DNA of 58,895 nucleotides from IMG/VR virus record IMGVR_UViG_3300013006_000001, positions 1 to 58,895 of that record. The stretch is one strand, 5' to 3'. The first letter of the stretch is position 1. Each line of letters starts with the position of its first letter. This document shows, piece after piece, positions 4,937 to 58,895 of the stretch. Below the pieces are notes generated by a model, which worked only from the letters and a program-made list of their open reading frames with translations, was not told where the DNA came from and did no database searches. The position numbers and the translations under genes are program-made. Origin of the DNA: a virus.

Positions 4937-5123
4937 GGATGACATAGCACACATGACTCACCGCATGAGGAAGTGTGGCAGTGCGAACTGCTGGACAGGA
5001 ACGAGCGGCACGCTTGCGAACGACGTTCGTCTGCTGCTGCAGGAAAGGGCAAGACTGTTGAACGAACTAGCAAAGAGGAGTGAAGATGACCAGAGCATTC
5101 GGGTACGGGAGGGTATCGACTAG
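4908..5123 (+). CDS. Hypothetical protein
   Basis: This is a 71-residue protein. The ATG at 4908 is six bases after AAGGAG and is preferred over the GTG at 4893. It is mostly helical (MTHRMRKCGS; DVRLLLQERARLLNELAKR) with a CGSANCWTGT loop holding two cysteines. It overlaps the Nmad1-like gene by 29 bp and the serine recombinase by 38 bp. The double overlap suggests a compact co-translated unit. Family not recognised. Confidence 0.5.
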   Translation: MPDQMLPLSEDDIAHMTHRMRKCGSANCWTGTSGTLANDVRLLLQERARLLNELAKRSEDDQSIRVREGID

Positions 5124-5847
5124 CGAGCAAGGCAACTCCATCGACAATCAGGAACACCGGCTCACTGAGTACATCAAGAGCAAGGGATGGGAGCTTGGTG
5201 GCATCTACCTCGACGAGGCGGTGTCAGGCAAGAAGGTGGAGGTGGCCAACCGCAAGGCTGGCAAGAAGCTGTGGGACCAGCTACGGGCAGGGGACTGGGT
5301 GATCCTCACCCACCTTGACCGTGCGTTCAGGTCCTCCAAGGATGCACACAACACGCTCTCTGCGTGGATGAAGCTGGGCGTCAAGGTGTACTTCCTTGAC
5401 ATCGGCTGCGACCTCGACACCAGTGAGGGCAGGCTGCTGTTCGGTGTGCTTGCATCCTGTGCTGAGTATGAGAGCAACTGCATTGGCATGAGACAGAAGA
5501 ACATCTGGGCCTACATGCGGCGCAATGGCGTGGCCTATGGCAACGCCCGTCCCTTCGGCTGGATCAAGAAGGATAGGGTCTTGGTGCCGTGCAACAAGGA
5601 GCGTGAGGTTGGCGACTTGGTCGTTCAGCTACGCAAGAAGTTCATGAGTTGGGAGCAAACAGCACTGGCTGTCCTGCACGCTGGCCACCGCAGGCCGCAT
5701 GCAATCAGGGGCCATGGCTACTACAGCCCGTCAACACTGGTCAGTTTGCACCGCGCCGCTCAAGCTGGATACCCAAAGAAACCGCAAGCGTTTTGGCAAG
5801 CCGACGCGAACGCAAGGAAGCAATCCGCAAAGGCAGGTCATGCTTGA
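5086..5847 (+). CDS. Serine recombinase (resolvase/invertase family)
   Basis: This 253-residue protein starts at an ATG five bases after AGAGGAG. Residues 5-15 (FGYGRVSTSEQ) hold the catalytic serine at S11. The arginine-rich active-site motif HLDRAFRS follows at 76-83. Residues 86-150 form the dimerisation helix region (GRLLFGVLASCAEYES), and a helical DNA-binding C-terminus follows. It lacks the long cysteine-rich domain of large serine integrases, so it resembles resolvases or invertases more than phage integrases. It may resolve genome dimers or invert a segment. Its last 107 bases are antisense to the sigma-factor gene. No attachment site was identified. Confidence 0.9.
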   Translation: MTRAFGYGRVSTSEQGNSIDNQEHRLTEYIKSKGWELGGIYLDEAVSGKKVEVANRKAGKKLWDQLRAGDWVILTHLDRAFRSSKDAHNTLSAWMKLGVKVYFLDIGCDLDTSEGRLLFGVLASCAEYESNCIGMRQKNIWAYMRRNGVAYGNARPFGWIKKDRVLVPCNKEREVGDLVVQLRKKFMSWEQTALAVLHAGHRRPHAIRGHGYYSPSTLVSLHRAAQAGYPKKPQAFWQADANARKQSAKAGHA

Positions 5848-55364: not shown

Positions 55365-55754
55365 ATGAAAGCAGACATTGCCCAGAAGTGGGCTGCTGCT
55401 CTGTTGAGCGGCGAATACAAGCAGGGCCGCAGCGGCCTGAAGACTTTCGACGTTGCTGCAGATCACACCGTGACAACTCGCCACTGCTGCCTTGGAGTCC
55501 TCTGCGATATCTTCGCAAAGGAGACAGGCTGCGGCGGGTGGAACGCAGGCACGTTCGTGATCAGTTCAACTGAGAAGGACAGCGGCATCCCGCCAGAGGA
55601 AGTCCAGAGATGGGCTGGCATGAGGTTTCGGAACCCAAATGTACCGCTCTTGACCTTGACCGGAACTCAGACGCTGGCTGGTCTGAATGACTCAGGCAAT
55701 TACAGTTTCGAGGAGTTGGCAGAAATCATCCTTACCCAGCAGGAGAAGTTATGA
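55365..55754 (+). CDS. Tandem paralogue A, small conserved phage protein
   Basis: This 129-residue protein starts five bases after AGGAGG. It shares with the next gene the pattern W-A-x-x-L-x-S-G-E-Y-K-Q-G, then the CCLGVLCDIF cysteine motif, then G-G-W-N, P-x-E-V-Q-R-W-A-G-M, N-P, and an end of LND followed by E-E-[LI]-A. The family is widespread in phages and functions are not known; the conserved Cys-Cys and W-A-G-M may form a small binding site. It overlaps its paralogue by 4 bp. Confidence 0.75.
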   Translation: MKADIAQKWAAALLSGEYKQGRSGLKTFDVAADHTVTTRHCCLGVLCDIFAKETGCGGWNAGTFVISSTEKDSGIPPEEVQRWAGMRFRNPNVPLLTLTGTQTLAGLNDSGNYSFEELAEIILTQQEKL

Positions 55755-56125
55755 GAGCAGCGATTGCAAAGGAGTGGGCCGACTCACTCCGCAGTGGTGA
55801 GTACAAGCAGGGCAAGCATGTCCTGCGGAGCGAAGGCAGCTTCTGTTGCTTGGGTGTGCTTTGTGACATCTACCGAACCAAAGCCTCAGGTGGCTGGAAT
55901 GGCATTCGATTCGTTGCTTTCGATGGGACCAGCAGCGAAATTGAACTGCCGCTGGCTGTGAGGACATGGGCTGGAATGCAGTCATCCAACCCGGTCAATC
56001 CTAAGCTGTTCCTTGAGGAGTCAAGGGGTCAGGGCCTTCCTGCCACCTTGTCCGACATGAACGACGAAGGTGCGACATTCGAGGAAATCGCTGATTTGAT
56101 TGACAGTTGCCACGAAACTTTCTAG
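55751..56125 (+). CDS. Tandem paralogue B, small conserved phage protein
   Basis: This 124-residue protein starts at an ATG overlapping the previous stop (ATGA). It has the same framework as its neighbour (ADSLRSGEYKQGKHVLRSEG, FCCLGVLCDIY, GGWNGI, RTWAGMQSSNPVNPK). Differences in the variable middle loop suggest different specificity. The pair is a clear tandem duplication that has diverged. Confidence 0.75.
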   Translation: MRAAIAKEWADSLRSGEYKQGKHVLRSEGSFCCLGVLCDIYRTKASGGWNGIRFVAFDGTSSEIELPLAVRTWAGMQSSNPVNPKLFLEESRGQGLPATLSDMNDEGATFEEIADLIDSCHETF

Positions 56126-56133
56126 GAGGGCCT

Positions 56134-56895
56134 ATGTGCCTAGCAGTGTATAAGCCCAAAGGTATAGTCCTACCATGGGACTACTACCAGAACGGCTGGG
56201 ACAACAACTCGCACGGTGCGGGTTTTGCTGTTGTCAATGACGGTACCCTTCTGGTCAGGAAGGGGTTCTTCAAGTTCGATGATTTCTGGCGGGAGTTTCA
56301 GCAGCATGAGCACAAGCAGGCAGTGATTCACTTCCGATATGCGACTCATGGTGCTCAGAATCATACCAACTGCCACCCCTTTGCGGTGAGTGACGGTTTG
56401 GTGATGGTTCACAATGGGATTCTGGACATTGCATGCAGCAATCCCAAGCTGTCCGACACGTGGCACTACGTCGATGAGGTGCTGACGCCGATGGCAAAGC
56501 GTGACCCTGACTTCTTCCTCCACAACGAGGTGGCATTCATGGGCGGTGCAGCCATCAGGGGCAGCAAGTTCATCTTCCTGCGTGCGGATGGCGAGTGGCG
56601 TATCTGGAACGAGGACGCAGGCGAGGAGTCGGATGGTGCTTGGTTCTCCAACACCACCTACAAGTCTGCCCGTGCAAAGTCTTACTGGTGGCACAAGAAG
56701 GATGAACCCATCGTCCTGTGCGATGAGCCAGATGGCGAGTCTGTCTACTACCAGTACCTAGACGGTGCCGAGAAGTGGCAGTACGAGGACCTCATCAAGG
56801 CTGGCTACACAATCAGTGAGATTGACGATTACATTGACACCGAGGGAACAGAAGTATTAGGCGAGCTTCTCGCCACAACCGAGGAGGAGATATGA
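56134..56895 (+). CDS. Class-II glutamine amidotransferase
   Basis: This protein has 253 residues from the ATG at 56134, which follows AGGAGG and places the nucleophile Cys at position 2 (MCLAVY) as required in the N-terminal nucleophile family. Residues 66-83 (HFRYATHGAQNHTNCHPF) form the glutamine-binding motif; VHNGIL follows at 92-97. The enzyme would release ammonia from glutamine for a partner ligase. The partner is probably the amidoligase encoded next, whose start overlaps this stop. Such pairs are known in phages and are thought to modify peptides or cell-wall components. Confidence 0.88.
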   Translation: MCLAVYKPKGIVLPWDYYQNGWDNNSHGAGFAVVNDGTLLVRKGFFKFDDFWREFQQHEHKQAVIHFRYATHGAQNHTNCHPFAVSDGLVMVHNGILDIACSNPKLSDTWHYVDEVLTPMAKRDPDFFLHNEVAFMGGAAIRGSKFIFLRADGEWRIWNEDAGEESDGAWFSNTTYKSARAKSYWWHKKDEPIVLCDEPDGESVYYQYLDGAEKWQYEDLIKAGYTISEIDDYIDTEGTEVLGELLATTEEEI

Positions 56896-58247
56896 ACACG
56901 ACCGAAGAGACTGTCGAGTGCCACGACGGCACAGTCCAGCCCACTGCGATGTGTGTGGAGATGGCCACCGGCGAGTGGGCGCCAGTCATCGACTGCCTGC
57001 GGGCACATGACGGCACATGGTTTCTTGATGGTGACGATGACTACATCCAGACCGGCAGTGAGGAGTGGGCACTCCGGGCAGACTGTGTCGAGTGCTACAG
57101 TGGAGACTGGAACCTGACAGTCAACTGCCTTGAGGACTGGGCCGGCAACTACTTCCTTGATGGCGACGATGACTACGTCGAGATCACAAGGGGTAGGCAT
57201 CGCCATGACTACGCCCACACAGATGATGTGGTCTACTACGAGGGCGGTTACATCCTCTCAGAGGACTGCACTTCCTGCGACGATTGCGGGGAGTCAATCC
57301 CAGACAACGACCTTGAGAGGGTGGAGAACGGCGGCCATGTGTGCCCGTCTTGTGTCAGCGACAACTACTACGGCTGCGACACCTGCGGTGACCTTGTCCA
57401 CAGCGACAACGTCCACAGCACCGATGACGGCACGTACTGCGAGGAGTGCTGCCCAGAACCAGAGGAGGCCGATAACGGCAACGCTGTGATCAAGAGCTAC
57501 TCAGACAAGTCTTCCATCAGCCTGCCGTCAGAGTCTAAGGACCTCCTGCAGTATGGCCTTGAGCTTGAGGTCGAAGGCCAGTCACACTGCAGCCGACTTG
57601 ACGCTGCCAACTGGGTGCGGACTCATCTCCCGGCCAGCTACGCAGTCTTCAAGGAGGACGGCTCACTCGGCAGCAAGGGCTTCGAGATTGTGACACGCTG
57701 GGATTCCGGCGAGGTTCACAAGCGTGAGTTCGACAAGATGCTGACCGACAGCCCGGGCAGGCATATCACAAGCTGGAGGTCTGGCGACTGCGGCATGCAC
57801 ATCCATGTACGCAAGAGGGCACTGACCGGCCTGCAGATTGGCAAGATGCTCTGCTTCATCAACAGCCCAGACAACCGCGAGTTTGTCGAGCGGGTTGCTG
57901 GCCGTGCAAGCAATGAATACAGCCTGCTCAAGCCAGACAAGAAGGTTGGCGACGGCGGCAAGCGTAGCGTGGACCGGCGTGAAGCACTCAATGTGACCAG
58001 TTTCTCTTGCGAGTTCCGCATCTTTCGCGGCACGCTCAAGCGAGAAAGCTGGCACAAGAATCTGGAATTTGTGCAGGCTCTCGTCGAGTTCTGCCAGCCC
58101 GCTGACCGTTCGATTCACGAAGCTGTGCGGTTCGACAAGTTTGTCGAGTGGGTTCAGCCACAGCACAAGAAGTACCCCAACCTCCATGCTTGGATGGTGG
58201 GCAAAGGTTACGCAGTCGCACCCAAGGAAGGAAGGAAGCCTGAATGA
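56892..58247 (+). CDS. Zinc-ribbon/amidoligase (COOH-NH2 ligase) protein
   Basis: This is a 451-residue protein. Residues 10-95 contain two repeats of about 45 residues, each ending FLDGDDDY (44-51, 88-95). Residues 126-187 hold paired CxxC sites (CDDCG, CPSC, CDTCG, CEECC), a double zinc ribbon. From residue 220 the amidoligase (COOH-NH2 ligase) pattern begins: YGLELEVEG, KEDGSLG (D256), GFEIVTRW (E265), CGMHIHV (300-306), then EFRIFRGTLK. It would join an amine, perhaps ammonia from the adjacent amidotransferase, to a carboxyl. The zinc part may bind the target. It overlaps both neighbours by 4 bp. Confidence 0.82.
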   Translation: MNTTEETVECHDGTVQPTAMCVEMATGEWAPVIDCLRAHDGTWFLDGDDDYIQTGSEEWALRADCVECYSGDWNLTVNCLEDWAGNYFLDGDDDYVEITRGRHRHDYAHTDDVVYYEGGYILSEDCTSCDDCGESIPDNDLERVENGGHVCPSCVSDNYYGCDTCGDLVHSDNVHSTDDGTYCEECCPEPEEADNGNAVIKSYSDKSSISLPSESKDLLQYGLELEVEGQSHCSRLDAANWVRTHLPASYAVFKEDGSLGSKGFEIVTRWDSGEVHKREFDKMLTDSPGRHITSWRSGDCGMHIHVRKRALTGLQIGKMLCFINSPDNREFVERVAGRASNEYSLLKPDKKVGDGGKRSVDRREALNVTSFSCEFRIFRGTLKRESWHKNLEFVQALVEFCQPADRSIHEAVRFDKFVEWVQPQHKKYPNLHAWMVGKGYAVAPKEGRKPE

Positions 58248-58681
58248 AGATCAGAGTGCGGTTCCACTTAGGAAAGGGCAAGCACTTCCGCAAGTGGCAG
58301 ATCAAGGGCAAGGATTCTGAGGGCAAGTTGCTGAAGACCAGCTACTTCCCTCCAGAGGGCAGCACCATCGTGATGCACGGCTGCAAGCTGGTGGTCCGAG
58401 AACGTGCAGCCCAGAAGATTCATGCCGGCGCGAACAAGTCCGTGTGTGCATGGGTTGAGTGCGACGGCATCGCCGTCTCTACCCTGCGAGATGTACCCGG
58501 CAAGGTGGTGGGTGTGCTGTCCTTCAACCCAAGGAAGAACTCTCACTGGACGATGACAAGCAGTCAACATAAGTTGCTTGCTTGTGCGATTGAGAAGAAC
58601 CAGAGATTCGCTACGCTGGTCACCCTTGACCGGCAGATACTTGTGATTGCAACCCCAGAAAAGGAGATTGCCAGTGAGTAA
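58244..58681 (+). CDS. Hypothetical phage protein
   Basis: This protein has 145 residues from an ATG overlapping the amidoligase stop (ATGA). It is basic and beta-rich: MKIRVRFHLGKGKHFRKWQI, FPPEGSTIVMHGCKLVVRER, then VCAWVECDGIAV. The pattern GxxFxxWQI...VxWV...V...SFNPR is familiar from phage proteins of unknown function. It may be a third component of the ligation system, because it is coupled to it; this is inference from position. Confidence 0.65.
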   Translation: MKIRVRFHLGKGKHFRKWQIKGKDSEGKLLKTSYFPPEGSTIVMHGCKLVVRERAAQKIHAGANKSVCAWVECDGIAVSTLRDVPGKVVGVLSFNPRKNSHWTMTSSQHKLLACAIEKNQRFATLVTLDRQILVIATPEKEIASE

Positions 58682-58895
58682 GGCAAAGAAGCCTCGACTG
58701 AAGAGGCTTGTTCCCGAGAAGCCTGACAGTCAGGTGCTGACAAAGGCAGAGTTGAACCTTCTGCGGCCCAGTAGGTATGGCTACATGATGCTGGTCATCG
58801 GCAACAACAACAGTTGGGGCCGTGGGATCAGCGGCAAGGAGGCTTACGTCAACTGCGGAAAGCCAACTGAATGGATTGTGTATCAGGTCTACCCA
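58674..58895 (+). CDS. Hypothetical phage protein, N-terminal part (continues at position 1)
   Basis: This frame begins with GTG at 58674, overlapping the previous stop (GTGAGTAA). Its N-terminus is basic (SKAKKPRLKRLVPEKP). The frame is open to the window end and continues in the left-end gene. From 58773 the sequence repeats the left end exactly. Together the two parts give about 141 residues. Confidence 0.8.
   Translation, partial: MSKAKKPRLKRLVPEKPDSQVLTKAELNLLRPSRYGYMMLVIGNNNSWGRGISGKEAYVNCGKPTEWIVYQVYP
58773..58895. repeat. Terminal direct repeat, right copy
   Basis: These last 123 bases are identical to positions 1-123. The frame of the interrupted gene is preserved across them. They mark the circular closure of the assembly. 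Confidence 0.95.

Follow-up and report, generated by a model that had tools for sequence, protein, structure and literature searches.

A divergent phage pair of overlapping glutamine amidotransferase-like and amidoligase genes with a doubled zinc domain

Earlier work on LUZ24-like phages (PMC3890496) and on OM43 phages (PMC10580990) described an association between amidoligases and glutamine amidotransferases (GATs), and the pair has been termed a putative peptidoglycan-modification module (PMC11945000). For the phiEco32 pair, a block to superinfection was proposed by Iyer et al. 2009, as the passages quoting that work in PMC10580990 and PMC11318856 give it. Our search of the literature found no biochemistry for any close member and no experiment identifying a substrate of the pair.

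The DNA analyzed here (the window) is a stretch of 58,895 nucleotides that spans positions 1 to 58,895 of IMG/VR record IMGVR_UViG_3300013006_000001. An exact direct terminal repeat of 123 bases (positions 1-123 and 58773-58895) indicates that the record is probably a complete genome, a circle of 58,772 bases. Genes for the portal, the large terminase subunit and the major head protein lie on the minus strand and identify a tailed phage. A serine recombinase with a resolvase domain and an integrase-like phrog_95 match is encoded at 5080-5847, and the phage carrying it may be temperate or DNA-inverting. Directly upstream of the GAT-amidoligase pair are two tandem overlapping paralogues (55365-55754 and 55751-56125) of phrog_18067, a family of unknown function, with a common CCLGVLCD motif.

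The preliminary description, made from the sequence alone, had outlined three overlapping open reading frames in this region, and all three are found on the plus strand as drawn, with a four-base overlap at both junctions (Table 1). The GAT stop and amidoligase start share the letters ATGA at 56892-56895, and at 58244-58247 the third gene starts across the amidoligase stop in the same manner.

Table 1. Features of the GAT-amidoligase region in window coordinates
Feature	Coordinates	Strand	Remarks
Class-II glutamine amidotransferase-like P0001, 253 aa	56134..56895	+	Cys2; R68, T71-G73, N94-G95, D108; GlmS-like fold
P0001 C-terminal helical tail, residues ~205-253	56746..56892	+	alignable to relatives of GAT-then-amidoligase order
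Zinc-ribbon amidoligase P0002, 451 aa	56892..58247	+	4-bp overlap with the end of the GAT gene
Acidic repeat unit 1, residues 21-52, CVE...FLDGDDDYI	56952..57047	+	sequence
Acidic repeat unit 2, residues 65-96, CVE...FLDGDDDYV	57084..57179	+	about 50% identity with unit 1
LIM-like double zinc ribbon, C129xxC132-x18-C151xxC154-x7-C162xxC165-x17-C183xxC186	57276..57449	+	four CxxC pairs
Amidoligase (glutamine-synthetase-like) catalytic domain, residues 219-425	57546..58166	+	E224, E226, D256, S258, E265, H303, H305, R338, N367, E374, R376 invariant
P0003, 145 aa, third overlapping gene	58244..58681	+	Phage_L5_gp82 family

The first protein, P0001, starts at an ATG preceded by AGGAGG, has the N-terminus MCLAV, and contains the motifs HFRYATHG (66-73), HNG (93-95) and SDT (107-109). 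Across the 22 members of the GAT alignment, Cys2, R68, T71-H72-G73, H81-P82, H93-N94-G95 and S107-D108-T109 are invariant, and we take these to correspond to the catalytic cysteine and glutamine-binding residues of GlmS, so that P0001 keeps the catalytic and glutamine-site residues of a class-II amidotransferase. Cys2 and the R-x-A-T-H-G motif are thus as the preliminary description had them, whereas its N-H-P motif reads C-H-P-F in this protein. Profile matches are weak but real (GATase_6, 8e-5; GATase_4, 5.5e-4; both below the Pfam cut-offs); the glmS profile is matched at E=2.7e-11, yet far below its equivalog cut-off, and phrog_25883, an uncharacterized phage family, at 2.5e-18. The predicted structure has a mean pLDDT of 87.7, and by fold it comes closest to the glutaminase domain of GlmS in its glutamate-bound form, with PurF and EgtC also among the matches.

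Assignment of the second protein, P0002, to the amidoligases is well supported, though indirectly by profile. Full-length P0002 gave no match to Pfam PF12224 (Amidoligase_2), and the profile check proposed for it earlier is marginal even with the trimmed catalytic domain (E=0.055, below the cut-off). The same profile is matched by 25 of the 26 aligned members, P0002 being the sole exception, and the matches above the curated cut-off include two full-length proteins from IMG/VR contigs (L001 and L002) that are 39-40% identical to P0002; since full-length relatives exist at this identity, the genes can be regarded as genuinely coding. Fifteen residues, namely those listed in Table 1 together with G222, G257, G263 and F417, do not vary among 13 proteins, the annotated amidoligases of LUZ24, tf and phiEco32 being part of this set. 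They take in the motifs E-x-E, DGS, E, H-x-H, R, N and E-x-R, so the Glu, Asp and His ligands whose loss would have counted against the assignment are retained, and P0002 shares the active-site residues of accepted PF12224 members. Comparison of profiles relates the window's amidoligase group to the LUZ24/tf/phiEco32 group at E=2.9e-9.

The structural model of P0002 is consistent with this assignment. Its catalytic domain has pLDDT mostly above 90 and a YbdK/glutamine-synthetase-like fold; against the PDB the best match is YbdK, with YbdK and glutamine synthetases at E of about 1e-5, and against phage amidoligases E-values reach down to 9e-25. A sequence search of solved structures with the amidoligase found none. 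TM-scores over the whole protein are low, probably because the comparison included the poorly modelled N-terminal part, and the argument from fold therefore rests on the E-values and the motif pattern.

These fold matches bear on how the two proteins might work together. EgtA is a ligase of the glutamine-synthetase-like superfamily and is paired with the GAT-II-fold protein EgtC, a gamma-glutamyl amidohydrolase and not an ammonia donor, while YbdK is a gamma-glutamyl-cysteine ligase. The window's pair likewise joins a ligase with a GAT-II-fold protein, and the P0001 model matches EgtC, also in the form that contains the natural substrate, with a weak match to NCBIfam EgtC in sequence (E=0.0043). 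If the phage enzymes acted in an EgtA/EgtC-like manner, the amidoligase would link an amine to glutamate or to some other acid, and the GAT-fold protein would later cut the gamma-glutamyl amide as a hydrolase, with no feeding of ammonia. The YbdK match and the presence of a gamma-glutamyl cyclotransferase and RimK-like ligases in related clusters point in the same direction. However, the GlmS glutaminase domain, and not EgtC, is closest to P0001 by both sequence and fold, and the tight coupling of overlapping genes suits a two-subunit enzyme better; we consider the EgtA/EgtC-like course rather unlikely.

The N-terminal part of P0002 holds two acidic repeats and a double zinc ribbon, as had been described. 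The repeat units, of about 32 residues each, are identical at 16 of 32 positions as judged by eye; L001 and L002 have a single unit. Residues 51-123 have low pLDDT, and unit 2 is not confidently folded. Resemblance of the zinc domain to LIM is limited, in that the Pfam LIM profile gives E=0.31 and the middle cysteine pairs are separated by 7 residues, as opposed to 2 in LIM domains. The N-terminal 213 residues alone found no meaningful match in the phage records.

A zinc ribbon of at least two CxxC pairs precedes the catalytic domain in almost every relative whose N-terminus is complete, and the doubled four-pair form also occurs in L001, L002, L014, L015 and MW202733. The idea that the ribbon is a fusion peculiar to this phage was consequently rejected, and the suggestion that it betokens a distinct substrate is not supported, as a domain common to nearly all complete relatives is a family trait and no mark of a special substrate. 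Amidoligases of the same subfamily in a C. difficile phage (L008) and a Microcoleus phage (L009) are without a zinc ribbon.

The prevalence of the ribbon is, at the same time, an argument for the idea that the zinc domain guides the amidoligase to a given protein of the host or the phage, whose carboxyls would be amidated or tagged and its function changed, with no involvement of the cell wall. This idea also draws on a BFVD relative named as a LIM domain containing protein and on the occurrence among the P0002 fold matches of PafA, the protein-modifying Pup ligase of the same superfamily. Against this, binding of the GAT partner or of nucleic acid would be just as plausible a task for a zinc ribbon, and the LUZ24/tf/phiEco32 enzymes have no ribbon and still retain the GAT neighbor, so that targeting of this kind appears unlikely. 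A more specific form, in which a two-subunit phage enzyme would amidate carboxylates in the side chains of a single selected host protein, to which its acidic repeats and LIM-like zinc domain would direct it, seems to us quite unlikely.

The third gene is probably a neighbor and not part of the enzyme pair. P0003 matches Phage_L5_gp82 (PF25735) at 1.1e-7, above the cut-off, and no relative of it was found in the phage records or adjoining the pair in any fetched locus. The proposal that it belongs to the system is accordingly not supported, and a three-gene operon was rejected as a conserved unit; what is conserved in the related loci is the neighborhood of GAT and amidoligase.

That neighborhood is nearly constant. 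A search with the amidoligase profile yielded 55 viral contigs, near-duplicates included; a GAT adjoins the amidoligase on the same strand in 51 of them, and the remaining four end where the GAT would be. Intergenic gaps range from -20 to +97 bp, and both orders occur, with the GAT leading in the window, L001, L002, L014 and L015 and the amidoligase leading elsewhere. Distance matrices of the two proteins are correlated over 21 dereplicated loci (r=0.89, permutation p=2e-4), a figure to which shared phage ancestry contributes and of which it can be a source. In one contig, IMGVR_UViG_3300011115_000265 (L003 and L020), there are two cassettes of amidoligase, GAT and ATP-grasp genes that differ from each other, one close to either end. 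Two scans of genome contigs, each with one or two short peptide patterns, found no relative in bacteria, and only three plasmids with an amidoligase were found, all from C. difficile. Phages that infect widely differing hosts carry the pair, and the functional link between a class-II GAT and an amidoligase that had been proposed is supported by the conserved residues and this two-gene neighborhood.

Taken together, the PF12224 matches, the invariant residues, the fold matches, the adjacency, the correlated distances and the published view of the module lead us to favor, at somewhat better than even likelihood, a reading in which the GAT and the amidoligase together make up one amide-forming enzyme that depends on glutamine and acts on a peptide. 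Cys2 at the N-terminus of P0001 would release ammonia from glutamine, and P0002 would activate a carboxylate with ATP and join it to the ammonia passed on from its partner in the complex, while the zinc domain probably serves to hold either the partner protein or the substrate. A peptide would most likely be the substrate, with the stem peptides of peptidoglycan or a peptide of the cell surface as the favored candidates, and the modification might alter the infected cell, for example against other phages. Modification of peptides or peptidoglycan had been anticipated in the preliminary description, and the present evidence supports it as probable; action early in infection, which that description had read from the position in the right-arm gene cluster, may be regarded as putative.

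Several observations count against the two-subunit reading. P0002 itself falls below the PF12224 cut-off, and the amidoligases of L008 and L009 have no adjacent GAT detected. The ATP-grasp ligase and gamma-glutamyl cyclotransferase of the LUZ24/phiEco32 clusters would be superfluous for a simple amidation, and a RimK-like ATP-grasp gene lies nearby in 23 of the 55 contigs; the pair may thus belong to a longer pathway. Phage-ZRK32, which has the same gene types, raises the further thought that the enzymes serve the general nitrogen and amino-acid metabolism of the infected cell as auxiliary metabolic genes, a role proposed for that phage from growth effects and not from enzyme assays (PMC10945688). 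The conserved extra domains and the pairing suggest a specific substrate instead, and we hold such a general metabolic role to be very improbable.

The window's pair can be placed among the known systems. The LUZ24/tf/phiEco32 module has a PF12224 amidoligase that adjoins a class-II GAT and carries the same motif residues, as in the window, but its amidoligase is without a zinc ribbon, its GAT is longer, and it also includes a COOH-NH2 ligase, a RimK-like ATP-grasp protein and a gamma-glutamyl cyclotransferase. None of these three was found among window open reading frames of at least 60 aa in searches with LUZ24 proteins and an ATP-grasp profile, the cyclotransferase and COOH-NH2 ligase being sought by single LUZ24 sequences only. 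The OM43 phages MEP401 and MEP402 (PMC10580990) and the podovirus MW202733 have a zinc-ribbon amidoligase of the same subfamily beside a class-II GAT; they differ from the window in having the amidoligase before the GAT and in an identity of 24-30% over the amidoligase, and the ribbon is single in MEP402 and double in MW202733. Mycobacterium phage Marvin also resembles the window, in that gp105, which has CxxC pairs, is homologous to amidoligases and the adjoining gp106 is a GAT, but the order is reversed, a 79-bp gap separates the genes and gp105 has a long C-terminal extension. Marvin gp105 (L006 3560-4921) is annotated as hypothetical, and a Tesla protein in BFVD with the same length (453 aa), which matches the amidoligase model, is named a glutamine amidotransferase domain protein.

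The IMG/VR contigs L001, L002, L014 and L015 share with the window the order GAT then amidoligase, the double zinc ribbon and, in three of the four, the 4-bp overlap; they differ in having no P0003-like third gene. The pair as such is therefore already known from LUZ24, phiEco32 and MEP401/402, and that of the window is a divergent new member, in which the gene order is inverted, the zinc domain is doubled and an ATP-grasp partner was not detected. It is compact, consisting of two overlapping genes in a genome that appears complete and in which neither an ATP-grasp nor a cyclotransferase partner was detected, and this compactness makes it a convenient minimal set for experiments on the function of the pair.
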